The position numbers and the translations under genes were made by a program. Below, in pieces: positions 2,024 through 22,516 of a DNA stretch of 22,516 nt (the stretch's first letter is position 1; each line of letters begins with the position of its first letter). Location of the stretch: the IMG/VR virus record IMGVR_UViG_3300035666_000174, positions 1-22,516 of that record. The stretch is one strand, 5' to 3'. The notes under the pieces were generated by a model, which was not told where the DNA came from, ran no database searches, and saw only the letters and a list, made by a program, of their open reading frames with translations. The DNA is from a virus.

Positions 2024-4576
2024 GTGGACTTCTACACTTCCGTTGACATTCGTGGCAAGAACATCCTGTACCGTGGATGGAAGAACGGGCAGCGTCAGCA
2101 CCTCCGTGTGCCGTTCTGCCCTACCCTCTACATCCCGTCCAAGGACGCAGGAGAGTTCACCACCATCAACGGCAAGCCCGTGCAGCCCATTCAGTTTGAC
2201 GGCATCGGGGAAGCCCGCGAGTTCATTGACCGTTTCAAGGATGTCTCCAACTACGACATCTACGGAAACACCAACTTTGTGTATCAGTACCTTTACAAGG
2301 AGTTTCCCAATGAAGTCGATTACGACTTCAGCAGCCTCCGCATAGCCAACTTGGACATTGAGACATCGTGTGACGGCGGTTTTCCCACGCCATCCTCTCC
2401 CACGGAGCGGGTCATTGCAATCACGATCTCAATGAGTGACAAGACCTATGTGCTAGGCTTGGGAGACTTTCATATTGACGGCGAGGGAGTTTCCTGCATT
2501 CCTTATGATGACGAGCAAGAACTGCTTGCAGGGTTCATTGAACTGTGGAGGTTCCTTGATCCCGACATCGTGACAGGGTGGAACATCCGCTTCTTTGATA
2601 TTCCGTACCTTGTGGCGCGGATGAACTACCTTGAAGAAGGATGGGGGAACTCCCTCTCGCCGTGGGGCAAACTACGCGAGACTGTGGTGAATCGCATGGG
2701 ACGCGACCAGACCGCGTATGTGATCAGCGGCGTTGCCACGCTTGACTACTTTGAACTGTATCAGACTTTCACCTATGTGAAGCAGGAGTCATACTCCCTC
2801 AATCACATTTCCAAGGTGGAGTTGGGCGAAGAGAAACTGTCGTATGCGGAATACGAAACCATTCAGGAGTTCTACACACAGAACTTTCAGCGGTTCATGG
2901 AGTATAACTTCCAAGATGTGCGGCTCGTTGATCGCCTTGAATCCAAACTGAAACTGCTGGAACTGGCGGTGGCGTTGGCGTATTCGGCGCGGGTGAACTT
3001 TGAGGATGTGTTCTCTCAAGTCCGCACATGGGATGCCATCATCCACCACCACCTGATGAGCAAGGGCATGGTGATTCCGCAGAAGACCGATCAGAAGAAG
3101 GATGATCAGTACGCGGGTGCGTATGTGATGAATCCCATCGTGGGCAAGCACGATTGGGTGGTGAGTTTTGACTTGAACTCGCTGTATCCGCACCTCATCA
3201 TGCAGTACAACATCTCTCCCGAGACAAAAGACACCAATCCCGTGTGGCGGCGCGGAGCCATCTCTCCCGAGTCCATGTTGGCACGGAATCGCGGGGAAGC
3301 GGTGAAGGATTTCATTGATCCTGCGGAATATCTGAACTCCGCGAAGGCAGACGGCGTGAGCGTGGCGGCGAACGGCGTTGCGTTCGTGCGCGACCGCCAA
3401 GGCTTCCTGCCCGAACTCATGGAGAAGATGTACGCAGAACGCAAGCACTACAAGAGCCTGATGATCGCAGCACAGAAGCGGTTGGTGGACTTGGACAAGA
3501 ACGCTCCCGCCGAAGAGCGGCGCAAGATTGAGTACGAGATTTCCAAGTACCACAACTTCCAGTTGGTGCGGAAGATTCAGTTGAACTCCGCATACGGCGC
3601 AATCGGCAATCAGTACTTCAGATTCTTTGATGTGGCACTTGCGGAAGCCATCACGCTTTCGGGGCAGTTGAACATTCAGTGGATCGGTGACGCGCTGAAC
3701 AAGTTCCTGAACCGCATCCTGAAGACGGAGGGCGAGGTGTATGTGATCTACATGGACACGGACTCCGTATACTTGAGACTTGGCAAGGTGGTGGATTCGT
3801 CTTTCAAGGGCGAACGCGACACGCAACGGGTGGTGGACTTCCTGAACGGATTCTGTGAGCGGGTGATACAGCCACAGATTGAGCGGGAGTTCGCCACCCT
3901 TGCGGACTGCATGAACGCCTACTCCAACAAGATGGTGATGGGACGCGAAGTCATTGCGGAGAGCGGCGTGTGGACTGCGAAGAAGCGGTATATGCTGTCG
4001 GTGTGGGATGCCGAAGGCGTTCGCTACAAGACCCCGAAGTTCAAGATCATGGGCATTGAGACTGCGCGTTCGTCCACTCCTGCGTATGTTCGCAAGGCAC
4101 TGAAGACTGCCATTGAGATGGTGCTGATGCGTGACGAAGCCACGCTTCAGGAGTTTGTCCGCAAGACGGAGCGCGAGTTCAAGTCCCTGCCTGTTGAGGA
4201 AGTCGCCTCTCCCCGTGGCGTGAACGGCATGGACGAGTACTCGTCACCGCTCACGATCTACAAGAAGGGAACGCCCATCGCGGTGAAGGCGGCTCTGCTC
4301 CACAACGCTCTTGTCAAAAAGATGGGCTTGAGCAAGAAGTACCGCACCATCGGTGAAGGCGAGAAGATGAAGTTCATCTACCTGAAGACTCCCAATCCCA
4401 TCCACGAAGGCGTGATCGGTTTCCCCGTCACCATGCCGAAGGAGTTCGGTCTTCAGAAATACATTGACTACGACACTCAATTCAAAAAGACTTTCCTTGA
4501 GCCTCTACGCGCCATCACCGATGCGATGGGGTGGAGTCCCGAGGAAAGAAATAGTCTTGAGTCACTGTTTGCTTGA
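2024..4576 (+). CDS. Family B DNA polymerase with 3'-5' exonuclease (T4 gp43 type)
   Basis: The replicative DNA polymerase of the phage, 850 residues against 898 for T4 gp43. The proofreading domain shows Exo I (L-D-I-E-T, Asp111/Glu113), Exo II (G-W-N-I-R-F-F-D-I-P) and Exo III (Y-N-F-Q-D-V-R-L-V-D). The polymerase domain shows motif A (D-L-N-S-L-Y-P from Asp383), motif B (K-I-Q-L-N-S-A-Y-G from Lys517) and motif C (Y-M-D-T-D-S, Asp578 and Asp580). All expected catalytic carboxylates are present, so it should be active in both polymerisation and editing. Translation begins at GTG 2024. There is no sign of an intein or intron, which do interrupt this gene in some phages. The gene heads the replication block that continues with uvsX, helicase and primase. 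Confidence 0.97.
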   Translation: MDFYTSVDIRGKNILYRGWKNGQRQHLRVPFCPTLYIPSKDAGEFTTINGKPVQPIQFDGIGEAREFIDRFKDVSNYDIYGNTNFVYQYLYKEFPNEVDYDFSSLRIANLDIETSCDGGFPTPSSPTERVIAITISMSDKTYVLGLGDFHIDGEGVSCIPYDDEQELLAGFIELWRFLDPDIVTGWNIRFFDIPYLVARMNYLEEGWGNSLSPWGKLRETVVNRMGRDQTAYVISGVATLDYFELYQTFTYVKQESYSLNHISKVELGEEKLSYAEYETIQEFYTQNFQRFMEYNFQDVRLVDRLESKLKLLELAVALAYSARVNFEDVFSQVRTWDAIIHHHLMSKGMVIPQKTDQKKDDQYAGAYVMNPIVGKHDWVVSFDLNSLYPHLIMQYNISPETKDTNPVWRRGAISPESMLARNRGEAVKDFIDPAEYLNSAKADGVSVAANGVAFVRDRQGFLPELMEKMYAERKHYKSLMIAAQKRLVDLDKNAPAEERRKIEYEISKYHNFQLVRKIQLNSAYGAIGNQYFRFFDVALAEAITLSGQLNIQWIGDALNKFLNRILKTEGEVYVIYMDTDSVYLRLGKVVDSSFKGERDTQRVVDFLNGFCERVIQPQIEREFATLADCMNAYSNKMVMGREVIAESGVWTAKKRYMLSVWDAEGVRYKTPKFKIMGIETARSSTPAYVRKALKTAIEMVLMRDEATLQEFVRKTEREFKSLPVEEVASPRGVNGMDEYSSPLTIYKKGTPIAVKAALLHNALVKKMGLSKKYRTIGEGEKMKFIYLKTPNPIHEGVIGFPVTMPKEFGLQKYIDYDTQFKKTFLEPLRAITDAMGWSPEERNSLESLFA

Positions 4577-7597: not shown

Positions 7598-8589
7598 TGT
7601 CCACCTACATTGACAAGAAGTACATCAACATGGTGTCTCCCCAACTTGAGCGATTCAAATGGAAGACCCAAGCACTTGCAAATTGTCGCTGCCCCGTGTG
7701 CGGAGACTCGCAGCGCAACAAGAGCAAGGCGCGTGGTTTCTTCTTCCCCAAGAAGAACGACTATTTCTACAAGTGTCACAACTGTGGAGTGGGGCATTCC
7801 GTATACCGATTTTTGGAAATCGTGGCTCCTGCTCTGGCACAGGAATACGCGCTTGAACGGTGGCGAAACGGGGAGAACGGCAAGAGCAACTATGTGAAGC
7901 CTGTGGAGGCGGCTGTAGCCCTTCCAAAGGCACAGATACGGCTTCCTCCCGTGTCCACCCTGCCTGAAACGCACCCTGCACGACAATATTTGGAATCGCG
8001 CAAGGTTCCCCACACAGATCGGTTCTATTTTTCAAAAGCATTCGGAGATTGGGTGCGCTCCATTGACTCTACATATACTACCGTTCCGAATGACGAGCGT
8101 ATCGTCATACCATTCGTGAACAAAGCAGGGGAACTCCTCGCGGCGCAAGGACGCTGCTTGAGCGGTTCCAAAAATTCAATCCGATACATTACCGTGAAGT
8201 TCACCAAGGACGGACGAGCGGTCTACGGCGAAGATCGGTTGGATTATTCAAAGAAGGTGTACGCCGTTGAAGGTCCGATTGACTCTGTATTTCTTCGTAA
8301 CTCTATTGCTCTTGCTGGCAGCGAACTCGCTCACGCCACGAAACTGTTTCGTGATTGCGTTGTTGTATACGACAATGAACCACGCAATCCCGAGATTGTA
8401 CACAAGATGGAAGACGCGATCCGTAGCGGCTATACCGTCTGTGTGTGGAACAGCAGCATCGGAGAAAAGGACATCAACGACATGGTGCTTGCAGGACGAT
8501 CTCCCGAAGAGGTTCAAGCCATCATTGACGAGTGTTCGTGCAGCGGTCTGACTGCACTGGCACGGTTTTCACAATGGAGAGTGCGATGA
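7597..8589 (+). CDS. DnaG-type primase (T4 gp61 type)
   Basis: A 330-residue primase, close to T4 gp61 (342). The N-terminal zinc ribbon has Cys32-P-V-Cys35 and Cys60-H-N-Cys63, and recognises template for primer synthesis. The Toprim catalytic domain shows V-E-G with Glu225, and Asp259-N-E in V-V-V-Y-D-N-E, the metal-binding acidic residues. A final G-E-K-D-I-N-D-M-V block matches the end of Toprim domains. I place the start at 7597, inside TGATG shared with the helicase stop. An in-frame ATG at 7585 would add four residues (MEYL) but lies within helicase coding sequence and lacks the coupling arrangement. The 3' end overlaps the next small gene as ATGA. Confidence 0.92.
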   Translation: MSTYIDKKYINMVSPQLERFKWKTQALANCRCPVCGDSQRNKSKARGFFFPKKNDYFYKCHNCGVGHSVYRFLEIVAPALAQEYALERWRNGENGKSNYVKPVEAAVALPKAQIRLPPVSTLPETHPARQYLESRKVPHTDRFYFSKAFGDWVRSIDSTYTTVPNDERIVIPFVNKAGELLAAQGRCLSGSKNSIRYITVKFTKDGRAVYGEDRLDYSKKVYAVEGPIDSVFLRNSIALAGSELAHATKLFRDCVVVYDNEPRNPEIVHKMEDAIRSGYTVCVWNSSIGEKDINDMVLAGRSPEEVQAIIDECSCSGLTALARFSQWRVR

Positions 8590-9539: not shown

Positions 9540-12059
9540 ATGACCTACTTCAACGATTCTCCCAAGCCCACAGAGCCACGCCGAACTGCTGCTGTTTCCA
9601 GTGGTCAGTTTGAGTCGGGTTCCGTATTTCGTTTAGTGCGCGAAATCCGTGGTTCCGCGTACTCTGTGGGCGATCAGTTCATGCTGGTGGAGAGTGAAGA
9701 CTGCCATGATCCCAACACGCTTGTATTGGGCGGCGTAGGCGAAAACTACTTTATAGACCCCCGTGGCAAGCCGCTAAAGATAGAGGCAGGGGACACACAG
9801 ATTGACTCTATTTTTGAGTTGGTTCGGGAACCGCAGCGCGAGGTGGTTGAGGAGATTGGAGCCGAGGACGCTCCACCCCGTCTTGTCACAGCCGAGCAGT
9901 TCAAGACTTTCCGCGAGGGTCTTGCTGGCGTTCTGAACGAGATTGCCGCTGTTCGTTCCACTGGCGGGGAGCGTGGAGATCGCGGTCCGCGTGGCTACAC
10001 AGGGGTTCAGGGCGACAAGGGTGATGTCGGACTGCAAGGACCGCAGGGTGAAAGGGGTGAGCGTGGTGAAAAGGGAGAACAGGGCGAGAAAGGCGATACG
10101 GGTGAGCGTGGACCGCAAGGGGAGCGTGGGGAACCTGGTCCGCAGGGTGATCGTGGGGAACAGGGAGAACGCGGTCCGCAAGGGGAACGCGGAGAACGCG
10201 GTGAACAGGGAGAACGGGGCGAGAAAGGCGATGCGGGTGATCGCGGCGAAGCAGGAGCAGAGGGTCCGCAAGGACCGCGTGGTGAGCGCGGTGCTGATGG
10301 TTCTGCGGGTGCTGACGGTCGTGATGGTGCTATTGGTCCGCGTGGCGAACGGGGCGAAAAAGGTGAACGCGGTGCTGAAGGCGCGATGGGTAAGCCTGGT
10401 TCAAACGGTGCAAAAGGCGAGAAAGGCGACAAGGGAGATGCTGGCGAGTCTGGAGTTGTAACCGCAAAGTTCCCGTTGGTCTATGACGCAGCCGAAAAGT
10501 CCATCTCTATTGATGAAGCACGCCTAGACAAAATTCTCAAGAAGATCATGGGCGGCGGCAAGGTGTCGCCGCAGGACATGGGTTGGCTTGCGTCCACTGG
10601 CGGCGGTGGCAAGGTGGCTGTGTACATCAACGGCTCCAAGATCACGCCTGATGTTCGCACACTGGACTTTACAGGCGCAGGAGTCACGGCTAGCAAGGTG
10701 GGCGGCAAGGTCACCGTGAACTTTACAGGCACGGGAGGCGGCAGCAGCGGTGGTGTGGCTAGCGTGAACGGATTGAGTGGTGCGGTTTCCATTGTGGGCG
10801 GAACCGATATTTCCATCAGTCCAAGTGGACAGACTCTCACCATTAACTACACGGGATCAAGCGTTTCCAATGCCGTGACATCGTTCAACGGCAATACGGG
10901 TGCGGTGCAGGGTGTATCAGCAGCAGCGGCAGGCACAGGCATATTTGTTTCTGCTGCAACTGGTTCCGTAACTATCACCAACACGGGTGTGCAGTCATTC
11001 AATGGCAAGACAGGACCAATAAATTTTGTCGCACAGCAGGGCATAACACTGTCCGTGTCTGGCACTACCACAAGCATAAGCCTTAATTACCTTCAAGGCG
11101 CGTCTGCAATTGCCACAACCAAAAATCCTGAAAAAAATGATTGGCTTGTTTTGCAGGACAATGGTTCTCCGTATTCCATGCAGAGAACACAACTAGGGAA
11201 TATTTCGTATCTGTTTTTAGGTACACAGGCAACGAAAGACTCTAGTTCATATTTTAGAATGGCAACAAACATCAACGGCGTTGCCAAAACCGTTGATGAC
11301 CAGTATGTTTCATTTAACGACATATCATCTGGTGTTCTACAGTCCATTCAGGGTGGAACCGACATATCGGTTTCCGTTTCAGGCACTACATTCACCATCA
11401 ACTACACCGGAACGGGTGGTGGGGGAGGATCGGGCGGAAACGCCTTCTTCTATCAGAACACCACTCCCGTAGGAGCAACCTATGGAGACAGATGGCTGAA
11501 CTCTAACAGCGGTTCGGAGTATGTGTTTGTATACGATGGAGACTCACCGCAGTGGATTCAGCCAGCGGTTCCGAGCGGAGTTGGTGCCACAGGACCACAG
11601 GGAGCAACAGGAGCAACTGGTCCTCAAGGGGTTCAGGGTAATACTGGTGCCACAGGTGCTACTGGTCCGGCGGGATCGGCAGGAGCAACAGGTACAACAG
11701 GACCAACAGAGGATGTGCTGTCTCTGTATATTGATTCCACCCCCGATGATATAAGCACAGGAAATAAGGCATTCCGACTCATACCGTATGACTGTGAAGC
11801 ACTTGAGTGGTATGTTGTTGCGGGGCAAACAGGATCGGTACAATTTGATGTCAAAAAATCATCGTTTGCAAACTACCCCACCACCTCTTCCATCGTAGGA
11901 TTGGACTATCCGGGCTTGAGCGGAGCGTTCAAGGCTTCAAACACAGGCATCACCGCATGGTCAGGAATGAGTGCGGGGGACATGGTGGACTTCATCATAA
12001 ATAGCAATACGGGAATACAGAGCGTAGGATTGTTCATCAAGATCAGGAGAATCACATGA
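9540..12059 (+). CDS. Collagen-like tail fibre / adhesin protein
   Basis: An 839-residue virion protein. Residues 1-140 form a compact N-terminal region that may attach to the tail or baseplate. Residues 143-304 are 54 uninterrupted Gly-X-Y triplets, very rich in Arg, Glu, Lys and Gln, so a charged collagen-type triple helix and trimer formation are expected. Residues about 305-660 are beta-rich with G-T-D-I-S-x-S and S-F-N-G-x-T-G-A-V repeats. A second run of 14 Gly-X-Y triplets (682-723, mostly G-A-T and G-P-Q) follows. The last 115 residues form a globular tip. The architecture is that of a phage side or short tail fibre. One 38-residue module (nt 10881-10994) is shared with two genes downstream. 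The ribosome site is poor (AGGG touching the ATG). The ATGA at the end overlaps the next gene. Confidence 0.88.
9966..10454 (+). repeat. Collagen-like coding repeat (54 Gly-X-Y triplets)
   Basis: A 9-base codon-level periodicity with GGN as every third codon, dominated by units coding [12 protein letters not shown] and GPQ. It also creates long spurious open frames in other registers. Slippage or unequal recombination here would change the length of the fibre shaft without breaking the frame. Confidence 0.9.
10881..10994 (+). repeat. 114-base fibre module, copy in the collagen-like gene
   Basis: Encodes S-F-N-G-N-T-G-A-V followed by a V-S-A-A / G-T-G-I / T-I-T-N-T-G-V pattern, 38 residues to the next S-F-N-G at 10995. 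The same 38-residue module with the same length occurs at 14755, 15360, 15474 and 15885 in two other genes. Confidence 0.85.
11583..11708 (+). repeat. Second collagen-like coding repeat (14 Gly-X-Y triplets)
   Basis: Fourteen Gly-X-Y triplets, mostly G-A-T and G-P-Q, encoded near the 3' end of the fibre gene. They are less charged than the first run and precede the C-terminal globular domain. Confidence 0.85.
11996..12003 (+). promoter_or_regulatory. Candidate T4-type late promoter box before the 807-residue virion gene
   Basis: CATAAATA matches the T4 late consensus TATAAATA at 7 of 8 positions and lies 52 bases before the ATG at 12056. It is inside the coding sequence of the preceding fibre gene, so its presence may be accidental. 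Confidence 0.35.
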
Positions 12060-14479
12060 AAGCAGCGGTAGAACATCATTTCACAGGTGCAACACTAGGA
12101 TTCACTGGTGGTCTTCCACCTGTTGGTTCAACTGCGGGTGGCTACGACTCCAGCAAGACCCTGCTCTCCTCGCTCATTCGCCAAGCCACGGGATCAAACC
12201 CCGAGGACAAGTACATTTCTCCCGATCCCGCAGCCATCGTGAACATTCCCGAAGTGTTTGTTGGCTCACAGTTTATGCCCCATGTCTACAAGTGGTCAGA
12301 CAACATCTACTGGATTTTTGCAGCGACTAATGCTAGTGCCGCAGCAACAAGAACCATAACACTCACGGAGTTTAACTCAAGCACATTTACCTTGACCTAC
12401 AAGGGATTCATCACGCTATCAGGAACCACGGTCGCAGGAAGCAAAACAGTTCGTTCGATTCGTGGAATCGTGTATAAGCATACATCAGGAACAGTTTCCA
12501 CAAGTGGCTCTTCCACCACCATCACAGGGTCAAGCACACAGTTCACCACCGACCGTATTGCAGTTGGAGCAAGAATTGGATTTGGAACCACAGACCCAAC
12601 CGCAGTCACCACATGGTATGAGATTACCGCTATTGCAAGCGACACTTCGCTCACAATCAGCGCACCCGTAAATTTGAACGCAGGCACATCGTATGTCATT
12701 GAAGAAATTCGTCTTGCAGTTGCAGTAACAAACTCATCACCTATTAACGGTGGAGTGCATCTCATCAAGGGATTGAACCACGGTACATTCACAAGTGGTG
12801 GAACAACCATTACTGAAGCAACCACAACAGACAATATTCGTGCATCGTATTTGCTTACGGATGCGGTAGGAACTTTGGGAACTGCTACGGCAACGGTGAC
12901 ATACAGCACTACAAATATATTGAGTTTAACTGGTCACGGACTCAATGTGGGTGATGCTGTTCAGTTCACTACTACAACCACCCTACCAACAGGATTGGCT
13001 GCGGGAACCACTTACTATGTTATTGCCACAAATCTTGGAGCCAATCAGTTTTCTGTTTCCACATCTTTCAATGGCTCCATAACATCTATTACTGCTGCGG
13101 GTTCGGGAACACACACGGTTCACTCTGTCAGTAATAGAATTGCAGCAACGCTTGCGGTGGATGATGACGGTCGTAGTGCCACGAGCCACGATTTATACCT
13201 TGTGAATGCCGCAAACTGCCAAGTAGTCAAATACAACATGCGAGCAGCATTGACTGTTGGCGCACTTACAGGTGGTCCTGCAAGCGGAACAAGCGTGAGC
13301 GCATTCGTCCACAAAACAGGAACAGTTGCGATTACAGGAACCATTTCACAGGTCAACAGCGGAAGAATCTTCACCGTGAATCACGGTTCAGCATCTGGTG
13401 TCAAGAGTCTGTATTTTGTTACCACAACCAGAGTTTACCGATGTCCTGTGTCCTCTCTCACAAATGCAAGTACATCTTGGCTTCAGGATTCTATGGTTGA
13501 AGTTCCACCCGGCGGTTCGGTAACATATACCACACTTTCAACAATGTCTCAAGTAGATTACTCTTCTACAATTGATCGTCTATTCATAACAAACACAGGC
13601 GGAAGATTGGGAACTTATGTGACTCCGTATGTCACAGGAGGAGAGCAGTTTGAGAAGTATATTGGAGCAAACCTTAGCCGATTGAAACTTACTACTACCC
13701 CATCAGGTGCAAGCGATGGTCTGTTTCCTCAAGCATCTTTAACTATTTGGACAGAAGACGGTTGGATGTTTGCAATTCCAAACTCAACAACATCCGGACA
13801 AAACTGGTTGTATGTGTTCCCGTTCGGCGTAGATGCGTATTACGAATCCACAAGCAGACAGGCAGTCATTACTCCTAAACTCGCAACCACGAACGCAAGC
13901 AAACTTTACCATGTGTATGTTGACCATATGGAATATGTAGGAGACTACGGACTCGGATTTCCTGTTGAGTCCTACAAGAAGTGGTATCGCACAAGTGGCA
14001 TAGACGATAATAGTGGTGCATGGACAGAAATTGCTACAGCAGCGGATTTGGAAGCCGCTGCTGTATCTGATTACATTCAGTTCAAGATTGCGTTTGATAT
14101 CATGGGTGAAATCTGCACCCCAACCCGCATCTATTCCATCACCTGTCTGTATGAGGACACTAATCAGGATTCGCATTATCAGCCATCCTTGTCCAAGTCC
14201 TCCACCGCAAGCAAGATATTCGCATGGAAACAGGTTGCTGCATGGGGATCAAATATCCCAAATATGAGAATTCGTTTGTATGATGCAAGCAACAACAATG
14301 AACTACTGAATGATACTGTCACTCTGTCCTCCTACGGTACATGGCAGTATTCGACAGACGGCACGAACTGGAATTCTTGGAGTGCCGCACAGGATACTAT
14401 TGGAAACTACATTCGCTATACCGCAACGGGTTTTGGATACAGCGGAGTCACCGTCAGAGCATTGCTGACACAGGCATAA
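12056..14479 (+). CDS. Putative virion (tail/baseplate-associated) protein with phage beta domains
   Basis: An 807-residue Thr/Ser/Gly-rich protein with no signal peptide or membrane segment. Residues about 145-218 (G-S-S-T-x-F-T-T-D ... W-Y-E-I-T-A-I-x-S-D-T-S-L-T-I) and about 281-356 (G-H-G-L-N-V-G-D-A-V-Q-F-T-T-T ... G-T-T-Y-Y-V-I) are two small beta-domain types that recur in many phage tail proteins. The part from about 370 to 640 has alternating strands with Y-F-V-T-T-T-R-V-Y-R and D-R-L-F-I-T-N-T-G, compatible with a beta-propeller. It starts in an ATGA overlap with the collagen-like fibre gene, so it is co-translated with adhesion proteins. The exact role is not recognisable; a tail-fibre connector or a large distal fibre part are both possible. 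Confidence 0.78.
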   Translation: MKAAVEHHFTGATLGFTGGLPPVGSTAGGYDSSKTLLSSLIRQATGSNPEDKYISPDPAAIVNIPEVFVGSQFMPHVYKWSDNIYWIFAATNASAAATRTITLTEFNSSTFTLTYKGFITLSGTTVAGSKTVRSIRGIVYKHTSGTVSTSGSSTTITGSSTQFTTDRIAVGARIGFGTTDPTAVTTWYEITAIASDTSLTISAPVNLNAGTSYVIEEIRLAVAVTNSSPINGGVHLIKGLNHGTFTSGGTTITEATTTDNIRASYLLTDAVGTLGTATATVTYSTTNILSLTGHGLNVGDAVQFTTTTTLPTGLAAGTTYYVIATNLGANQFSVSTSFNGSITSITAAGSGTHTVHSVSNRIAATLAVDDDGRSATSHDLYLVNAANCQVVKYNMRAALTVGALTGGPASGTSVSAFVHKTGTVAITGTISQVNSGRIFTVNHGSASGVKSLYFVTTTRVYRCPVSSLTNASTSWLQDSMVEVPPGGSVTYTTLSTMSQVDYSSTIDRLFITNTGGRLGTYVTPYVTGGEQFEKYIGANLSRLKLTTTPSGASDGLFPQASLTIWTEDGWMFAIPNSTTSGQNWLYVFPFGVDAYYESTSRQAVITPKLATTNASKLYHVYVDHMEYVGDYGLGFPVESYKKWYRTSGIDDNSGAWTEIATAADLEAAAVSDYIQFKIAFDIMGEICTPTRIYSITCLYEDTNQDSHYQPSLSKSSTASKIFAWKQVAAWGSNIPNMRIRLYDASNNNELLNDTVTLSSYGTWQYSTDGTNWNSWSAAQDTIGNYIRYTATGFGYSGVTVRALLTQA

Positions 14480-14480
14480 A

Positions 14481-14621
14481 ATGGATGACATCATTTTCTA
14501 CAGCGAATACTTCTTTCTTGATATGCCAGTACAGGCATCGGGAACGATATCTGCATTTGAGGCAGACAGTTCGTGGTTTGTACTGAGACTGGCGTTGCCC
14601 GAGAGAATATCCGTAGGTTAA
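14481..14621 (+). CDS. 46-residue hypothetical protein in the fibre cluster
   Basis: A small ORF that exactly fills the gap between the 807-residue and 100-residue genes: its ATG begins one base after the previous stop and its TAA is one base before the next ATG. The protein begins M-D-D-I-I-F-Y-S-E-Y-F-F-L-D and is mixed aromatic, acidic and hydrophobic, with no motif I recognise. It lacks a clear Shine-Dalgarno, so translation would depend on reinitiation. Leaving it out would leave a 143-base hole in an otherwise gapless operon, which is the main reason to call it. It may be a small virion or assembly protein; the function is unknown. Confidence 0.55.
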   Translation: MDDIIFYSEYFFLDMPVQASGTISAFEADSSWFVLRLALPERISVG

Positions 14622-14622
14622 T

Positions 14623-14925
14623 ATGCCCATCAACTTTCCAGCATCTCCCGCCCCGAACGAAACCTACACTTATTCCGGTTCCACATGGAAATGGAATGGT
14701 GCTGCATGGGACTTGACTGTTGGAGCCATACAAACCACCGAAGACTATGTGATTTCGTTCAACGGAGTCACGGGTGCGGTGCAGGGGGTTTCTGCGGCTG
14801 CTTCAGGCAGCGGAATCGCGGTTTCGGCTGCAACAGGTTCCGTGACCATTACAAATATTGGAGTGGTGTCGTTCAATGGGCTTACGGGTGCGATCACGGC
14901 AGTTGACGGGGGAACCTACGCCTAA
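14623..14925 (+). CDS. Short fibre-like structural protein with the shared 38-residue module
   Basis: A 100-residue protein. Residues 1-30 (I-N-F-P-A-S-P ... Y-T-Y-S-G-S-T-W-K-W-N-G-A-A-W) resemble a short N-terminal segment common in phage tail-fibre proteins. Residues 45-82 are one full copy of the 38-residue S-F-N-G module, followed by the start of a second (S-F-N-G-L-T-G-A-I). It ends G-G-T-Y-A. It looks like a truncated or miniature relative of the large fibre encoded next and may be a fibre cap, adaptor or recombination product. The ATG follows the 46-residue ORF by one base. Its stop overlaps a late-promoter-like CCTAAATA, after which the large fibre gene starts 26 bases further on. 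Confidence 0.75.
   Translation: MPINFPASPAPNETYTYSGSTWKWNGAAWDLTVGAIQTTEDYVISFNGVTGAVQGVSAAASGSGIAVSAATGSVTITNIGVVSFNGLTGAITAVDGGTYA
14755..14868 (+). repeat. 114-base fibre module, copy in the 100-residue gene
   Basis: Same 38-residue unit as at 10881 and 15360, with the next S-F-N-G beginning exactly 114 bases later at 14869. Confidence 0.85.
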
Positions 14926-14928
14926 ATA
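14921..14928 (+). promoter_or_regulatory. Candidate T4-type late promoter box before the large fibre gene
   Basis: CCTAAATA matches TATAAATA at 6 of 8 positions, in the same sequence context (GCC-TAA-ATA) as the box at 9527. Initiation about 6 bases downstream would leave a short leader carrying AGGAAG at 14938-14943, 8 bases before the ATG at 14952, which is a sensible arrangement. Confidence 0.4.
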
Positions 14929-14951
14929 TTGGCACATAGGAAGCACACCAC

Positions 14952-17900
14952 ATGGGAACAGAAATCACATTCCGTAGAGGCTCAAACTTCCCCACCTCGG
15001 GGTCGGGAATTACTCTATCGGAACCAGTATTTGAAACCACGCTGAAGACTTTCCACATCGGCTTGGGTCACGGAGTCACTGCGGAGTGGGTTGGCGCACC
15101 CATTAGCGGCTTGAGCGCGGAGATTGCAGCAGGCATTACCTACAAGATTCCCACTCTTGCGGCGGTCAAGAACTACATCGGTGGACTGTGCTACGGGAAC
15201 ACTGCTGGAGGTGGAACATCCATCACTCAGTATGTTGCTTCTTTAAACGGACTCACGGGTGCAGTTGGATTGGCAGGCGGAACGGACATATCCGTTGCCA
15301 TTTCTGGACAGACCCTCACCGTAAATTACACTGGCTCAAGCGTTTCCAATGCGGTCACCTCGTTCAACGGACTCACTGGTGCGGTTCAGGGCGTATCGGC
15401 AGCGGTTGCTGGAACGGGAATCTCCGTTTCTGGAGCAACAGGTGCGGTCACCATCACCAACACTGGTGTGGTGTCGTTCAACGGCAACACTGGTGCGGTT
15501 CAAAGTGTGTCTGCTGCTGTTGCAGGAACAGGCATATCTGTATCGGGTGCAACTGGTGCAGTCACCATTACTAACACAGGCGTTCAATCATTCAACGGAG
15601 TCACAGGAGCCGTTACTGGCGCATCGCTTGGTGCAAACACCTTCACGGGGCTACAAACCCTGAATGCAGGACTCAGCGCATCTGCCGTCTATGTGTCCAC
15701 TGGTTCAACTTTTGCAGGATTGGTGACCTTCACCAATGGCGTATCTGCCGCTGGAACAATTACTCTTGCGTCACCCAATCTCACGGGAACACCAACCGCA
15801 CCAACTGCGGCACTAGGCACCAACACCACACAGATTGCCACCACTGCTTTCGTACAGTCAGAGATTGTGGCTGATACGGTCACGGCGTTCAACGGTCGGA
15901 CTGGTGCGGTTCAGGGTGTCTCTGCTGCCGTGGCAGGAACAGGTATATCCGTTTCTGGCGCAACAGGATCAGTAACCATCACCAACACTGGTGTACAGTC
16001 GTTCAATGGCAACACAGGAGCAGTCACAGGCGCATCGCTTGGTGCAAACACATTCACTGCCCTGAACTCCTTCAACGCAGGCATCAGTTCTGTTGGTGGA
16101 ACATTTAGCGGCGATATTGTTAAATTCTTAAGTGGTTTGTCTGCTTCTTTTGTGAGAGTCGGCTCGCTTGAATCAAACAATAGCAATCCTGTTACTCTTT
16201 CCGATAATAGACTCCGATTTACAGTAGTAGGATTTCCCACTTCATCCTATACAACTCTTCAGGCAGATCCCACCACATCAGCCGACCGAACAGTAACTCT
16301 CCCTGACGAAAGCGGAACCGTTGCACTCACATCCCAACTCATGGGTGCAGTGAACGGCTCAACCGCTGCAACCACCGCTGTTACCTCGTTCAACGGACTC
16401 ACGGGAGCGGTCGGCGGGGTGTGTGCTGCACAGGCAAACACATTTACCGCGCTACAGTCGTTCGCTTCAGGAATATCTGCCAGCGGAATCACCGTTGACG
16501 GTGCAATAGAAATAAACAGAAGACCATATTGGAATTTGGGTTCAGATGAAAATGTAGTGAACGGTGTGTCTGCTCTGTTACTGCAAGGAGCAACCCTAGG
16601 ATACGCTTCAAGAATTTCGGTAAATGGATATTCCTTTCTTGGAAACACTGGTTCGGTTGATCTGATTCCATACAACGGAATTGTATATGTTCGTCGCGGA
16701 GAATACGGTGATCGTGATCTTCCAGCGGCTGCTAGTTGGACTTCTTCAATTTACATAGAAGAGAATCAGGTTTTTGTAGGAAGATACTACGGAATCATTA
16801 CAGTTCCGGGTTCTCTGACCGCAAACAGAACGGTAACGATTCCCAATGCTAGTGGAACCCTTGCACTCACATCCCAACTCATGGGTGCAGTGAACGGCTC
16901 AACCGCTGCAACCACCGCTGTTACCTCGTTCAACGGACTCACAGGCGCAGTCACAGGTGTCACGGTGGGTGGTGCAAACACCTTTACAGCACTGAATACT
17001 TTCAATGAAGGTATCAGTGCGGCAGGAGCCACATTTGCTAGTAATATCATCGTGAACACCATGACGGTTGGTCGCGGAAATACTAGCGGTGCTGTATCAA
17101 ATACTGCTTTGGGAGTCAGTGTGTTGGCTGTGAACAGCGGCACATTCAACACAGGAGTCGGAAACTCTGCTCTAACCGCAAACACGACTGGTGGCTCCAA
17201 CACAGCGGTGGGAAGACGCGCACTGTTTGTAAACACCACTGGCTCATCCAACACAGCGATTGGTCAAATTGCGCTCGGTGCGGTCACTGGGGGTGTGTTC
17301 AACACCGCGATTGGTTCAGACTCTCTGTCTTCAACACTGGTAAGCAACAGTACAGCCGTTGGAGCAGGAGCAATACAGTATAATGTGAGCGGCAACGACA
17401 ACACTGCTGTGGGTGCGTTTGCGGGATCGTTCTGGGGTGAAGGGTCTACGGCATCCATTTTATCGAATCAGTTGCAGACTGGTGCGGGCGGTGTTTACAT
17501 TGGATACTACGCTCGCGGATCAACATTTAATCAAACAAATGAAATCGTAATCGGAGCCAACGCTGTGGGCGGTGGCTCAAACACTGCCGTGATTGGCGCA
17601 ACCTCACAGGTTTCTGCAACAGTTTACGGGTTGTTCAACGCGCCTAGTGGCGTGTGTGCCAGTGGAGCAACATTCTCTGGACAGGTACGGGTAAACGGAA
17701 ACCTGTTTGCCAACAACATCGTGAACGCCTTGAACGGCTTCACTGGTGGTGTCACCCTTGCAGCAGGCACAGGCATCTCGGTTAGTGGTGCAACAGGTGC
17801 AGTCACCATCACAAACATCGGTGTACAGTCATTCAACGGACTCACAGGAGAGGTTGGTGGAGTGTGTGCGGCACAGGCAAACACATTTACCGCGCTGAAC

Positions 17901-18899
17901 TCGTTTAACGCAGGAATCAGTTCAGCAGGAGGAACCTTCAGCGCACTCACAAGATTCACTGCGGGAATTAGTGCTTCTGGTGGAATGACTCTCGCGGGAT
18001 TTTTACAGGGAACCACTGCAAACTTCACAGGCACTGTCACAGGAACAACTTTTATTGGTGGTTTGAGCGGAAACGCCACAGGTATAATCATAAATGCAAG
18101 CAGTTCTTCTTCAGAATTGTTTCCAGTTTTATGCACATCCACAAGCAGTACTGTGGCAAGAGCAGATACAGTTGCACCGAGAGTTTCTATTATTCCAAGT
18201 ACGGGACAACTGACTGCCCCTGTCTTTAGAGTTGCATCTACTGCATCTGGTGGGGCTTTTACTGAAATAACGGACGCTGGAATCATAACTGCTAATAGTG
18301 ATTTAACACTGCTCTGCGATGCAAACATTCTTTCTTTGGGAGATGTTAATTACATCACTAATGGCTGTAAAATCGTAATTGATAACAGTAGTGGTTTAAT
18401 AGATGTTAACGCAGTAGGATCTCCACTAACTTTAACTGGCTCATCCGTATCTGTTAGTGGACTATTAAATGCACCCGATGGAATCAGTTCAGCAGGAGGA
18501 ACCTTCAGCGCACTCACAAGATTCACTGCGGGAATTAGTGCTTCTGGTGGTGTAACCTTTAGCGGAACTGTTTCATCTGACACTGGTTACAGAATAACTT
18601 CTAGTGCAATCAACGCACAGACAGGAACCACATACACTTTCCTTGAGAGCGACAACGGCAAGGTACTGACCTTCAACAACGGCTCCGCAGTCACCGTGAC
18701 CATCCCCACCGCGTTACCAGTGGGTTTCAACTGCACTGCCATTCAGTTGGGGGCTGGACAGGTTGGATTTACCGCAGCAAGCGGACTTACCCTGCAAAGT
18801 TACGGATCGCAGTACCGACTAATTGGACAACACGCATCCGCAACTATCATTGAATACTCGGCAAACATCGTGAACCTGTCAGGAAACCTTGTTGTATGA
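14952..18899 (+). CDS. Large repetitive tail fibre protein
   Basis: A 1315-residue fibre. The N terminus (T-E-I-T-F-R-R-G-S-N-F-P) is followed by a modular shaft built from S-F-N-G-x-T-G-A-V units, three of them full 38-residue modules (two in tandem at 15360 and 15474). These alternate with A-N-T-F-T-A-L-x-S-F-N-A-G-I-S and F-x-G-x-I-S-A-S-G blocks. Residues about 714-828 contain N-T-A-x-G repeats with A-L-x-x-N-T-T-G-x-S, like the YadA-type left-handed beta-roll found in trimeric adhesins and phage fibres. The C-terminal 95 residues (Y-T-F-L-E-S-D-N-G-K-V-L-T-F) resemble a common phage fibre tip domain. No endosialidase-type chaperone is visible. The start has AGGAAG 8 bases upstream. The stop overlaps the next gene as ATGA. 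It probably forms a trimeric host-recognition fibre. Confidence 0.87.
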   Translation: MGTEITFRRGSNFPTSGSGITLSEPVFETTLKTFHIGLGHGVTAEWVGAPISGLSAEIAAGITYKIPTLAAVKNYIGGLCYGNTAGGGTSITQYVASLNGLTGAVGLAGGTDISVAISGQTLTVNYTGSSVSNAVTSFNGLTGAVQGVSAAVAGTGISVSGATGAVTITNTGVVSFNGNTGAVQSVSAAVAGTGISVSGATGAVTITNTGVQSFNGVTGAVTGASLGANTFTGLQTLNAGLSASAVYVSTGSTFAGLVTFTNGVSAAGTITLASPNLTGTPTAPTAALGTNTTQIATTAFVQSEIVADTVTAFNGRTGAVQGVSAAVAGTGISVSGATGSVTITNTGVQSFNGNTGAVTGASLGANTFTALNSFNAGISSVGGTFSGDIVKFLSGLSASFVRVGSLESNNSNPVTLSDNRLRFTVVGFPTSSYTTLQADPTTSADRTVTLPDESGTVALTSQLMGAVNGSTAATTAVTSFNGLTGAVGGVCAAQANTFTALQSFASGISASGITVDGAIEINRRPYWNLGSDENVVNGVSALLLQGATLGYASRISVNGYSFLGNTGSVDLIPYNGIVYVRRGEYGDRDLPAAASWTSSIYIEENQVFVGRYYGIITVPGSLTANRTVTIPNASGTLALTSQLMGAVNGSTAATTAVTSFNGLTGAVTGVTVGGANTFTALNTFNEGISAAGATFASNIIVNTMTVGRGNTSGAVSNTALGVSVLAVNSGTFNTGVGNSALTANTTGGSNTAVGRRALFVNTTGSSNTAIGQIALGAVTGGVFNTAIGSDSLSSTLVSNSTAVGAGAIQYNVSGNDNTAVGAFAGSFWGEGSTASILSNQLQTGAGGVYIGYYARGSTFNQTNEIVIGANAVGGGSNTAVIGATSQVSATVYGLFNAPSGVCASGATFSGQVRVNGNLFANNIVNALNGFTGGVTLAAGTGISVSGATGAVTITNIGVQSFNGLTGEVGGVCAAQANTFTALNSFNAGISSAGGTFSALTRFTAGISASGGMTLAGFLQGTTANFTGTVTGTTFIGGLSGNATGIIINASSSSSELFPVLCTSTSSTVARADTVAPRVSIIPSTGQLTAPVFRVASTASGGAFTEITDAGIITANSDLTLLCDANILSLGDVNYITNGCKIVIDNSSGLIDVNAVGSPLTLTGSSVSVSGLLNAPDGISSAGGTFSALTRFTAGISASGGVTFSGTVSSDTGYRITSSAINAQTGTTYTFLESDNGKVLTFNNGSAVTVTIPTALPVGFNCTAIQLGAGQVGFTAASGLTLQSYGSQYRLIGQHASATIIEYSANIVNLSGNLVV
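15360..15587 (+). repeat. Two tandem 114-base fibre modules
   Basis: Units begin with TCG or TCA of S-F-N-G at 15360, 15474 and 15588, exactly 114 bases apart. They differ mainly at third codon positions, so the protein repeat is better conserved than the DNA, indicating selection on sequence and length. Confidence 0.9.
15885..15998 (+). repeat. Further 114-base fibre module
   Basis: A-F-N-G-R-T-G-A-V version of the 38-residue unit, followed by S-F-N-G at 15999. A shortened 34-residue relative (A-L-N-G-F-T-G-G-V) runs from 17727 to 17828. Confidence 0.85.
16321..16402 (+). repeat. 82-base exact direct repeat, copy 1
   Basis: Identical by eye to 16861-16942, exactly 540 bases (180 codons) downstream in the same gene. 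It encodes L-T-S-Q-L-M-G-A-V-N-G-S-T-A-A and runs into S-F-N-G-L-T. Perfect identity, including silent positions, indicates recent duplication or gene conversion. Confidence 0.95.
16861..16942 (+). repeat. 82-base exact direct repeat, copy 2
   Basis: Second copy of the repeat at 16321-16402. Recombination between the two would remove or duplicate 180 residues in frame. Confidence 0.95.
17913..17983 (+). repeat. 71-base exact direct repeat, copy 1
   Basis: Identical by eye to 18480-18550, 567 bases (189 codons) downstream. It encodes G-I-S-S-A-G-G-T-F-S-A-L-T-R-F followed by T-A-G-I-S-A-S-G-G. Confidence 0.95.
18480..18550 (+). repeat. 71-base exact direct repeat, copy 2
   Basis: Second copy of the repeat at 17913-17983. 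The offset is a whole number of codons, so exchange between the copies keeps the fibre gene in frame. Confidence 0.95.
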
Positions 18900-20024: not shown

Positions 20025-21944
20025 ATGAAGCGATTGCCTACCCTCTATCAGGATTTCATCCACCTTTCCCGTTACAGCCGTTGGATTGAATCCGAGAAAC
20101 GCCGTGAGTCTTGGGAAGAAACGGTTGACCGTTACTTTCGCTTCTTTGACGAGCATTTCACAGAGAAGGGCATCAAGATAAATAAGGCAGTCCGCGAAGA
20201 ACTCCGTGAAGCGGTTCTCAACCTTGAGGTGATGCCGTCCATGCGGTCGCTGATGACCGCAGGCGAAGCCCTCAAGCGCGACAACACCGCAGGCTACAAC
20301 TGCTCCTATGTCGCGGTGAACAAGGTTCGCGCATTTGATGAGATACTGTATGTTCTCATGTGCGGAACGGGTGTAGGCTTTAGCGTGGAGAGGCAGTATG
20401 TGGAGAAACTTCCTACAATTGCTGAAGAGTTTACGAACAGCGATACTCTCATTGTGGTCAAGGACTCCAAGGAAGGTTGGGCAAAAGCCTACCGAGAACT
20501 GGTATCCCTACTTATTGGAGGTCAAATCCCCCGATGGGACTTGTCTCACATTCGTCCTGCTGGTGCGCGCCTCAAGACTTTCGGTGGACGCGCAAGTGGA
20601 CCTCAGCCGCTTGAAGACCTCTTCCGATTTACCGTCAGCACTTTTAAGAAGAGTGCTGGCAGAAAACTCACCTCCATTGAATGTCACGACATTATCTGTA
20701 AGATTGCAGAGATTGTCGTTGTCGGAGGTGTCCGTAGATCGGCTCTTATCTCGCTATCCAATCTCACGGACGAGAGGATGCGTGATGCAAAGGTTGGGCA
20801 GTGGTGGTTGGACAACCCCCAAAGAGCGTTAGCGAACAACTCCGTAGCCTTCAAGGAGAAGCCAGAGATCGGCACATTCATGGAGGAGTGGCTGTCGCTC
20901 TACAAGAGCAAGAGCGGTGAGCGCGGCATCTTCAACCGTCAAGCCGCACAGAAGACGGTGGAGAAACTTGGTGATCGCCGTGATGCCTCCTACGAGTTCG
21001 GCACAAACCCCTGCTCCGAGATCATTCTCCGCGACAAGGAGTTCTGCAACCTGTCCGAGGTGATTGTCCGCGCCGAGGACACTCCTGATACCCTGAAGCG
21101 CAAGGTTCGTCTTGCTGCCATTCTTGGCACATGGCAAGCCTCGCTCACCTATTTCCCGTATCTCAGCAGCGATTGGAAGCGCAATTGTGAAGAGGAGTGC
21201 CTGCTTGGTGTTTCGCTCACAGGCATTCTTGACAACCACTTCATGCGAACGCAGGGCGACAATCTCAATGTGCTGCTTGAACTGCTCAAGGCTGACGCGG
21301 TTGCCACGAACAAGGAGTGGGCTAAAAAGATCGGCATCAACCCCGCAGCGGCTATTACTTGCGTGAAGCCAAGCGGCACGGTGTCACAGTTGACGGATGC
21401 GGCTAGCGGCATCCATGCTCGTCACAACGAGTACTACATCCGCACTGTTCGTGCCGACCGCAAAGACCCCATGTGTCAGTTTATGATTGACAAGGGATTT
21501 CCTGCGGAGCCGTGTGTCATGCGTCCTGATCACACTATGGTGTTCTCGTTCCCGCAGAAGGCTGTGGGATCGGTGACGCGCAACGACATGACTGCGATTG
21601 AACACCTTGAACTGTGGCTCACCTATCAGCGTCACTGGTGCGAACACAAGCCAAGCATCACGGTTACTGTTCGTGAGCATGAGTGGATGGAGGTTGGTGC
21701 GTGGGTGTACGCGCACTTTGACGAGATCAGCGGCATTTCGTTCCTGCCCCACTCCGATCACACCTATCAACAGGCTCCGTATCAGGACTGCACACAGGAG
21801 CAGTATGAAGCCGCTGCGGCTAAACTGCCGCAGTCCATTGATTGGAGTGAACTCACACAGTACGAGAAGTCTGACACCACGAAGGGAACGCAGACCTTTG
21901 CGTGTTCAGGCGACAAGTGCGAAGTGGTTGACTTGACTACATAA
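20025..21944 (+). CDS. nrdJ: Class II adenosylcobalamin-dependent ribonucleotide reductase
   Basis: A 639-residue monomeric-type class II reductase, shorter than Lactobacillus leichmannii RTPR (739) but with the same catalytic spacing. The redox pair is Cys93 (A-G-Y-N-C-S-Y) and Cys341 (F-C-N-L). The thiyl-radical cysteine and catalytic glutamate are Cys330 and Glu332 in N-P-C-S-E-I. The C-terminal shuttle cysteines are Cys627 and Cys632 (C-x4-C). These correspond to RTPR C119, C419, C408, E410, C731 and C736. It reduces ribonucleotides to deoxynucleotides without oxygen, using B12, so the host must have cobalamin. AAGGAG at 20012-20017 lies 7 bases before the ATG. It is a single-gene transcription unit flanked by two terminators. 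No intein or intron was seen. Confidence 0.94.
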   Translation: MKRLPTLYQDFIHLSRYSRWIESEKRRESWEETVDRYFRFFDEHFTEKGIKINKAVREELREAVLNLEVMPSMRSLMTAGEALKRDNTAGYNCSYVAVNKVRAFDEILYVLMCGTGVGFSVERQYVEKLPTIAEEFTNSDTLIVVKDSKEGWAKAYRELVSLLIGGQIPRWDLSHIRPAGARLKTFGGRASGPQPLEDLFRFTVSTFKKSAGRKLTSIECHDIICKIAEIVVVGGVRRSALISLSNLTDERMRDAKVGQWWLDNPQRALANNSVAFKEKPEIGTFMEEWLSLYKSKSGERGIFNRQAAQKTVEKLGDRRDASYEFGTNPCSEIILRDKEFCNLSEVIVRAEDTPDTLKRKVRLAAILGTWQASLTYFPYLSSDWKRNCEEECLLGVSLTGILDNHFMRTQGDNLNVLLELLKADAVATNKEWAKKIGINPAAAITCVKPSGTVSQLTDAASGIHARHNEYYIRTVRADRKDPMCQFMIDKGFPAEPCVMRPDHTMVFSFPQKAVGSVTRNDMTAIEHLELWLTYQRHWCEHKPSITVTVREHEWMEVGAWVYAHFDEISGISFLPHSDHTYQQAPYQDCTQEQYEAAAAKLPQSIDWSELTQYEKSDTTKGTQTFACSGDKCEVVDLTT

Positions 21945-21977
21945 AAGAACCCCACGGAATATCGCATCTCCCGTCCG

Positions 21978-21999
21978 ACAACCCCCGAAAGGGGGTTGT
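21978..21999 (+). terminator. Rho-independent terminator after the ribonucleotide reductase
   Basis: A 9-bp stem ACAACCCCC / GGGGGTTGT with a GAAA tetraloop and a following TTCTTTTT tract. It has the same loop as the terminator at 19953. Confidence 0.92.
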
Positions 22000-22052
22000 T
22001 TCTTTTTACAAATCTAGACATTTTTATTCCGCCAAGTCCACTAGATAATTAC

Positions 22053-22516
22053 ATGAAGAGAGGTGCAGTCCATTCTCTTCTCTTGGCGTTTGCACTCGTC
22101 TTGCTGCAAGCCTGTGCATGGGACATCGCCGCCGCCACTGCGCCGAAGAGCGCACCCCCGCCGAAGAGCGGGGAGATTGAACTCGTAGAAGCCCCCGTGG
22201 AGCCAGTCTTCATGCGGGGCTTCTCTCGTATTTCTGAATGCGAAGACACCACTGTGGGTGCTTTGGCACGGGAGGATGGCACGGTATACGGTAGCGGTGT
22301 GCTTGTGGGGGCTTCCCATGTTCTCACTGCCGCGCACTGCACGGAAGGGATAACACCCTACTGGTTCATCTCTGGCGGGGAATTCTTCAAGATCCGCTCT
22401 GTCACCGTGCATCCACAATACAAAATTGGAGAAGTGATTTTTGTGGATCTAGCCATGCTGCGCTTGGATGCGCCTTGCCCTGCCACACCCGCTACGCTGC
22501 CACAGGAGGGCTGCCA
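22053..22516 (+). CDS. Predicted lipoprotein trypsin-like (S1) serine protease, 3' end outside window
   Basis: The reading frame is open to the window edge (154 codons plus). The N terminus is a lipoprotein signal: M-K-R, a hydrophobic stretch and a lipobox L-Q-A-C with Cys21 as the likely lipidated residue. A Pro/Ala-rich linker (about residues 27-50) leads into a chymotrypsin-fold domain. G-S-G-V-L-V ... H-V-L-T-A-A-H-C carries the catalytic His95, and V-D-L-A-M-L-R-L carries the catalytic Asp132. The catalytic Ser lies beyond the edge. The product would be exported by the host and anchored in a membrane, which is unusual for a phage gene beside a reductase. It could modify the infected cell surface, resist a host factor or act at lysis; none of this is shown. 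The ATG lacks a good Shine-Dalgarno. Confidence 0.85.
   Translation, partial: MKRGAVHSLLLAFALVLLQACAWDIAAATAPKSAPPPKSGEIELVEAPVEPVFMRGFSRISECEDTTVGALAREDGTVYGSGVLVGASHVLTAAHCTEGITPYWFISGGEFFKIRSVTVHPQYKIGEVIFVDLAMLRLDAPCPATPATLPQEGC

Follow-up and report, generated by a model that had tools for sequence, protein, structure and literature searches.

Why would a T4-like phage carry a serine protease behind a lipoprotein leader, and where in the infected cell would such an enzyme act? The question is posed by one edge of the window analysed here, i.e. an entire IMG/VR record of 22,516 bp, where an open reading frame runs from an ATG at position 22053 to the last base (154 codons) and the catalytic serine falls beyond the end. 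The preliminary description had read this stretch as a lipobox followed by a trypsin-fold domain with TAAHC and DLAML motifs, and this is confirmed by the reading frame, the motifs and the Pfam Trypsin match (E-values of 1.7e-7 for the fragment and 4.5e-14 for the full protein, far above chance). The overall explanation that we favour, and hold to be probable with moderate confidence, is that of a tethered periplasmic S1-type protease, encoded in an accessory slot of the phage genome and cleaving envelope proteins.

The complete gene and its family

The remainder of the gene was found in contig L002, which matches the final 3813 bases of the window with 100% identity and carries a complete copy at positions 3350-4123, encoding 257 amino acids without a frameshift and with a stop codon (protein ending ...GTIWFGDSGGAIYDNSG...PCN). 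L002 supplies the sequence WFGDSGGAI including Ser207, and with it the G-D-S-G-G serine motif for which an extension of the sequence had been proposed; the concern that a frameshift or a missing catalytic serine might lie past the edge is thereby removed. The catalytic triad of the full protein is His95, Asp132 and Ser207 (GDSGG). Features of the locus are collected in Table 1.

Table 1. Features of the protease locus. Positions refer to the window unless a contig is given.
Feature	Position	Strand	Evidence
Ribonucleotide reductase (adenosylcobalamin-dependent NrdJ type), constant left flank of the slot	20025..21944	+	phrog_367, E 1.6e-188
Intrinsic terminator of the upstream reductase	21977..22007	+	Stem and T-run, folding energy
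Trypsin-fold lipoprotein gene, 5' 154 codons, cut by the contig end	22053..22516	+	Open reading frame, Pfam Trypsin, L002 overlap
Lipoprotein signal peptide MKRGAVHSLLLAFALVLLQAC, predicted lipidated Cys21	22053..22115	+	Sequence; lipobox Cys in relatives
Pro/Lys-rich linker, low confidence, ~codons 22-55	22116..22217	+	pLDDT, megablast ends, drop in identity
Catalytic His95 codon (TAAHC motif)	22335..22337	+	Kept in every relative covering the position
Catalytic Asp132 codon (DLAML / VDLAM motif)	22446..22448	+	Kept in every relative covering the position
Subtilase in the slot	L128:1337-2743 (also L129-L133)		Pfam Peptidase_S8, PF00082

A scan of IMG/VR with the fragment gave 19 relatives, and with a full-length alignment at least 96, of which 80 were kept; 78 loci were analysed, corresponding to 58 distinct sequences. 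Among these, His95, Asp132 and Ser207 are unanimous wherever the position is covered, the retrieval patterns including WFGD and so biasing the neighbourhood of the serine, not the serine itself. The family is further marked by the motifs GT[IV]WFGDSGG, which is conserved, and YGTxxEEP. Whole-gene dN/dS values of 0.13-0.32 in 13 pairs point to purifying selection, as expected of a selected enzyme.

No close relative was found among the isolate phages of INPHARED: tblastn with the proteins of the window fragment, L002 and L093 gave no match, and the L076 protein gave only weak matches, to other peptidases. A scan of cellular genome contigs with the family alignment likewise returned no relative, with a motif-dependent procedure that used phage-specific patterns and was not exhaustive, and 294 Planctomycetota genomes yielded only distant trypsin-domain matches (best E 1e-15).

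Leader, fold and specificity

By a motif test, the N-terminus has the make-up of a lipoprotein, with a basic n-region, a hydrophobic core and a lipobox with an invariant cysteine (LQAC, codons 18-21, positions 22104-22115). All 54 distinct relatives whose N-terminus is intact carry this cysteine, at a distance of 17-21 residues from the start, the assignment being one of motif only and the start codons having been picked with the lipobox in view. The lipobox is retained even where overall identity is down to 34%.

AlphaFold prediction with 15 close sequences gave a pLDDT of 68.6, and a model based on 43 sequences (pLDDT 81.6) was used instead. It comprises an N-terminal helix, a disordered linker (pLDDT below 50 at residues 20-45) and a double-barrel domain that is confident from residue ~50. 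The nearest structures in Foldseek were elastase, chymotrypsin and trypsin (best E 4.6e-12; TM-score of 0.76 for elastase, normalized to the target), and many viral trypsin-like proteases, some of them from phages, were matched as well. The chymotrypsin double beta-barrel, a Pfam Trypsin score of 53.2 bits against a gathering cut-off of 20.6 and the triad order His-Asp-Ser all place the protein with the S1 proteases. It is not a trypsin sensu stricto: all 58 sequences have Thr201, six residues ahead of Ser207, in the place of Asp189, so that cleavage after Arg or Lys is not expected and the word trypsin names the fold only. From established knowledge of S1 enzymes, a neutral P1 residue would be preferred. 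There is no sign of zymogen activation, since the Arg of an RGF motif ahead of the domain is not kept across the family.

Genomic neighbourhood and carrier phages

The upstream reductase was most similar to a phage cobalamin-dependent RNR (NrdJ; 65% identity). The protease gene had been described as lying directly downstream of the reductase terminator, and this terminator proved real: a 10-pair stem (21977-22000) is followed by TCTTTTT, with a folding energy of -18.7 kcal/mol (z -3.3). The protease gene would thus be transcribed separately or depend on read-through. No sigma-70-like promoter was found in 21850-22300, and inspection of 22010-22052 revealed no clear Shine-Dalgarno sequence ahead of the ATG. 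Many relatives have a TAGATATTTAC-like stretch adjoining the start codon.

In nearly all surveyed loci the protease gene sits between the RNR to its left and a RuvC-like gene to its right. Farther right, ~1 kb downstream and on the opposite strand, most loci encode a 98-aa lipoprotein and a 145-aa membrane protein. In L015 these are found at 7637-7933 (-) and 7945-8382 (-), the 98-aa lipoprotein having a C-terminal membrane segment; it diverges fast and its 145-aa neighbour (phrog_38283) is conserved, and the two could form a lysis or envelope module. Neither neighbour carries a lysis annotation, phrog_38283 being labelled 'unknown'. A motif scan of a 150-kb relative identified only two convincing lipoprotein-like genes, i.e. 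the protease and a homolog of the 98-aa neighbour.

The carriers are T4-like phages, as judged by gp23, gp43, UvsX and a gp41-like helicase. The polymerase of the window belongs to family B, with a cyanophage gp43 as nearest match (49%), and the window also encodes a UvsX-like recombinase, a DnaB-like helicase, a primase and ThyX. Large relatives span 96-150 kb; gp23 is present in three of five, and four of four large contigs encode a gp21-type prohead protease (PF03420) of their own. Both gp23 and the polymerase are nearest to those of cyanophages; psbA and cpeT are absent from six large, incomplete contigs, an absence that does not exclude a cyanobacterial host. The clues to the host, among them a Phycisphaerae relative of the subtilase described below, are weak and contradictory. 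Elsewhere in these genomes, the 150-kb relative encodes, next to a tRNA cluster, a permuted tmRNA that includes a tag peptide (L103:6387-6801). The window itself encodes three very large proteins of 839, 807 and 1315 aa (9540-18899), probable tail fibres in which collagen repeats or SFNGLTGAV-type motifs recur, and a possible phage-borne restriction-modification pair, in which a restriction-endonuclease-like gene (38-577, phrog_28079) adjoins a DNA methyltransferase (599-1765).

An accessory slot for proteases

A search based on RuvC returned 570 relatives, of which the nearest 80 were kept. The slot between RNR and RuvC holds the trypsin-fold lipoprotein in 73 of these 80 loci (31 by direct test and 42 as contigs already in the protease lists), a subtilase in six and nothing in one, L127, where RuvC follows directly after the RNR terminator. 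In the RNR phylogeny L127 branches from within the trypsin carriers. The slot is accordingly accessory among the nearest 80 of the 570 RuvC loci. The subtilase has 468 aa, with a match to PF00082 (E 3e-43), a weak prodomain match and a dockerin-like C-terminal repeat, and a protein of a Phycisphaerae MAG (51%) is the one cellular relative that turned up. Its N-terminus has a short hydrophobic stretch without a basic residue, which makes its export less certain. That an unrelated protease can take over this position is the best hint of selection on proteolysis outside the cytoplasm, and supports extracytoplasmic proteolysis as the selected trait of the slot.

The gene had further been suggested to be host-derived cargo. 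Its accessory, cargo-like nature is borne out by the one empty slot and the six loci with another protease. Host derivation is weak or unproven, given that no close cellular relative was found in the scans described above and that the composition is only mildly atypical: the GC content of the gene is 0.57, where the window as a whole has 0.51, and its codon fit is the poorest among the genes compared, with a GC3 inside the range of the other genes.

Exchange of catalytic domains

In pairs of loci with RNRs at least 95% identical, the median identity was 95% for the leader and 68% for the catalytic domain (range 44-100); the corresponding medians of RuvC, the 145-aa protein and the 98-aa lipoprotein were 96%, 92% and 63%. 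L014 and L041, for example, share 98% identity in RNR, 95% in the leader, 51% in the catalytic domain and 98% in RuvC. Identity falls within or just past the linker (codons 22-60) and is back up at RuvC, which places the left edge of the exchanged segment in the linker or shortly beyond; megablast matches of several relatives stop at ~22232. One group of catalytic domains, group B, forms a single clade in the domain tree (support 93/85) and requires six changes on the RNR tree. AU tests rejected both holding group B together on the RNR data (p 2e-88) and the converse on the catalytic data (p 3e-96), with very large likelihood gaps of 383 and 141, the groups having been named after the identities were seen, so that the p-values should not be read as coming from a test registered in advance. 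Catalytic domains are thus swapped between near-identical phage backbones, and the pattern is one of exchange of old, functional alleles, not of point-by-point positive selection.

Relation to known proteases and phage lipoproteins

The phage protease shares with S1 (PF00089) and Trypsin_2 (PF13365) enzymes the triad order, the GDSGG motif and the double-barrel fold, and departs from S1 in the Thr at the Asp189 position, the lack of a conserved zymogen-activation Arg, the lipoprotein leader and motifs of its own. HtrA, DegP and DegS are trypsin-fold enzymes of the periplasm, the compartment proposed here for the phage protease. Assignment to HtrA/DegP was rejected: the 257 residues contain no PDZ domain, Pfam gives only Trypsin and Trypsin_2, and matches to the NCBIfam HtrA models lie far below their cut-offs. 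No match to Peptidase_S77 (T4 gp21 prohead protease) was found in the phage protease.

Trypsin-like peptidases of phages have already been annotated elsewhere, and the nearest annotated phage proteins are those of PHROG 9683 ('protease') and USN15568.1 from Brevundimonas phage vB_BpoS-Kikimora, which share the trypsin-like domain. The peptidase of this jumbo phage, a member of another phage group, is ~27% identical over part of the domain and is encoded next to the portal gene. It too has a hydrophobic export-type leader but, by inspection, no lipobox, the sole Cys of the leader preceding further hydrophobic sequence. Among characterized phage proteases we know of none that functions as a lipoprotein of the host membrane, and limited literature searches revealed none. 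Phage T5 encodes Llp, named as a superinfection-preventing lipoprotein (PMC9409062). Llp resembles the phage protease in being a phage-encoded lipoprotein at the host envelope and differs from it in being a 77-aa non-protease.

Proposed function

From its sequence, the gene product is predicted to be a catalytically competent chymotrypsin-fold (S1-type) serine protease, exported by the Sec pathway and then lipidated at Cys21. In a host of Gram-negative type, a flexible linker of ~30 residues would tether it to the membrane and leave its catalytic domain in the periplasm. It would be produced during infection, set off from the upstream RNR by the terminator, and its most likely substrates would be proteins of the infected cell that belong to the envelope or are exposed to the periplasm. 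As to its purpose, we rank superinfection exclusion, by removal of a receptor or entry factor that competing phages use, slightly above help in lysis, and the latter above nutrient supply. Exchangeable alleles in an accessory slot are easier to reconcile with a variable target on the outside than with a constant step in lysis; allele exchange is common in phages and by itself no pointer to competition between them.

A role in lysis or release is a possible, if rather unlikely, alternative. The tethered protease, in concert with the nearby membrane proteins, would here weaken the envelope or clear envelope protein, and so let the progeny escape. The 98-aa lipoprotein and the 145-aa membrane protein, which are encoded in most loci and could be a lysis module, keep this role in play, but both are convergent with the protease instead of co-directional and without lysis annotation, and the protease is absent in one locus and swapped for a subtilase in others. 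Less likely still is an auxiliary gene for nutrition, i.e. a host-type exoprotease feeding amino acids to the infected cell. The subtilase, with its dockerin-like tail and sole Phycisphaerae relative, would suit such a role. The trypsin-fold form, however, is tethered, small and devoid of binding domains, no close cellular homolog of it was found, and an infected cell has little time for scavenging by exoproteases.

A protease for virion assembly or maturation, as the position of the Brevundimonas phage peptidase beside the portal gene might suggest, is very improbable: all intact relatives have the lipoprotein leader, the gene lies beside RNR and RuvC instead of head genes in a slot that can be empty, and the phages encode a dedicated gp21-type prohead protease, which leaves capsid maturation independent of the trypsin-fold protein. 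Although the window ends within the gene and the GC content is somewhat above its mean, a switch of the contig to host DNA or a pseudogene can be ruled out for practical purposes, since phage genes flank the protease on both sides and continue past it in dozens of contigs, in support of its description as phage-encoded, and the reading frame is intact and under purifying selection.

The tethered periplasmic protease might be taken one step further, to a distinctly tentative proposal that we doubt more than we credit: the slot would be dedicated to exported proteases, of S1 and S8 folds and with traded domains, whose proteolysis at the surface excludes competitors while the target keeps shifting. 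If true, superinfection exclusion would here proceed via enzymatic destruction, not blocking. A widespread group of uncultured T4-like phages in environmental samples probably invests in proteolysis outside the inner membrane of the host, and its exchanged alleles, substitute subtilase and empty slot offer natural comparisons for testing the roles of phage envelope proteases.
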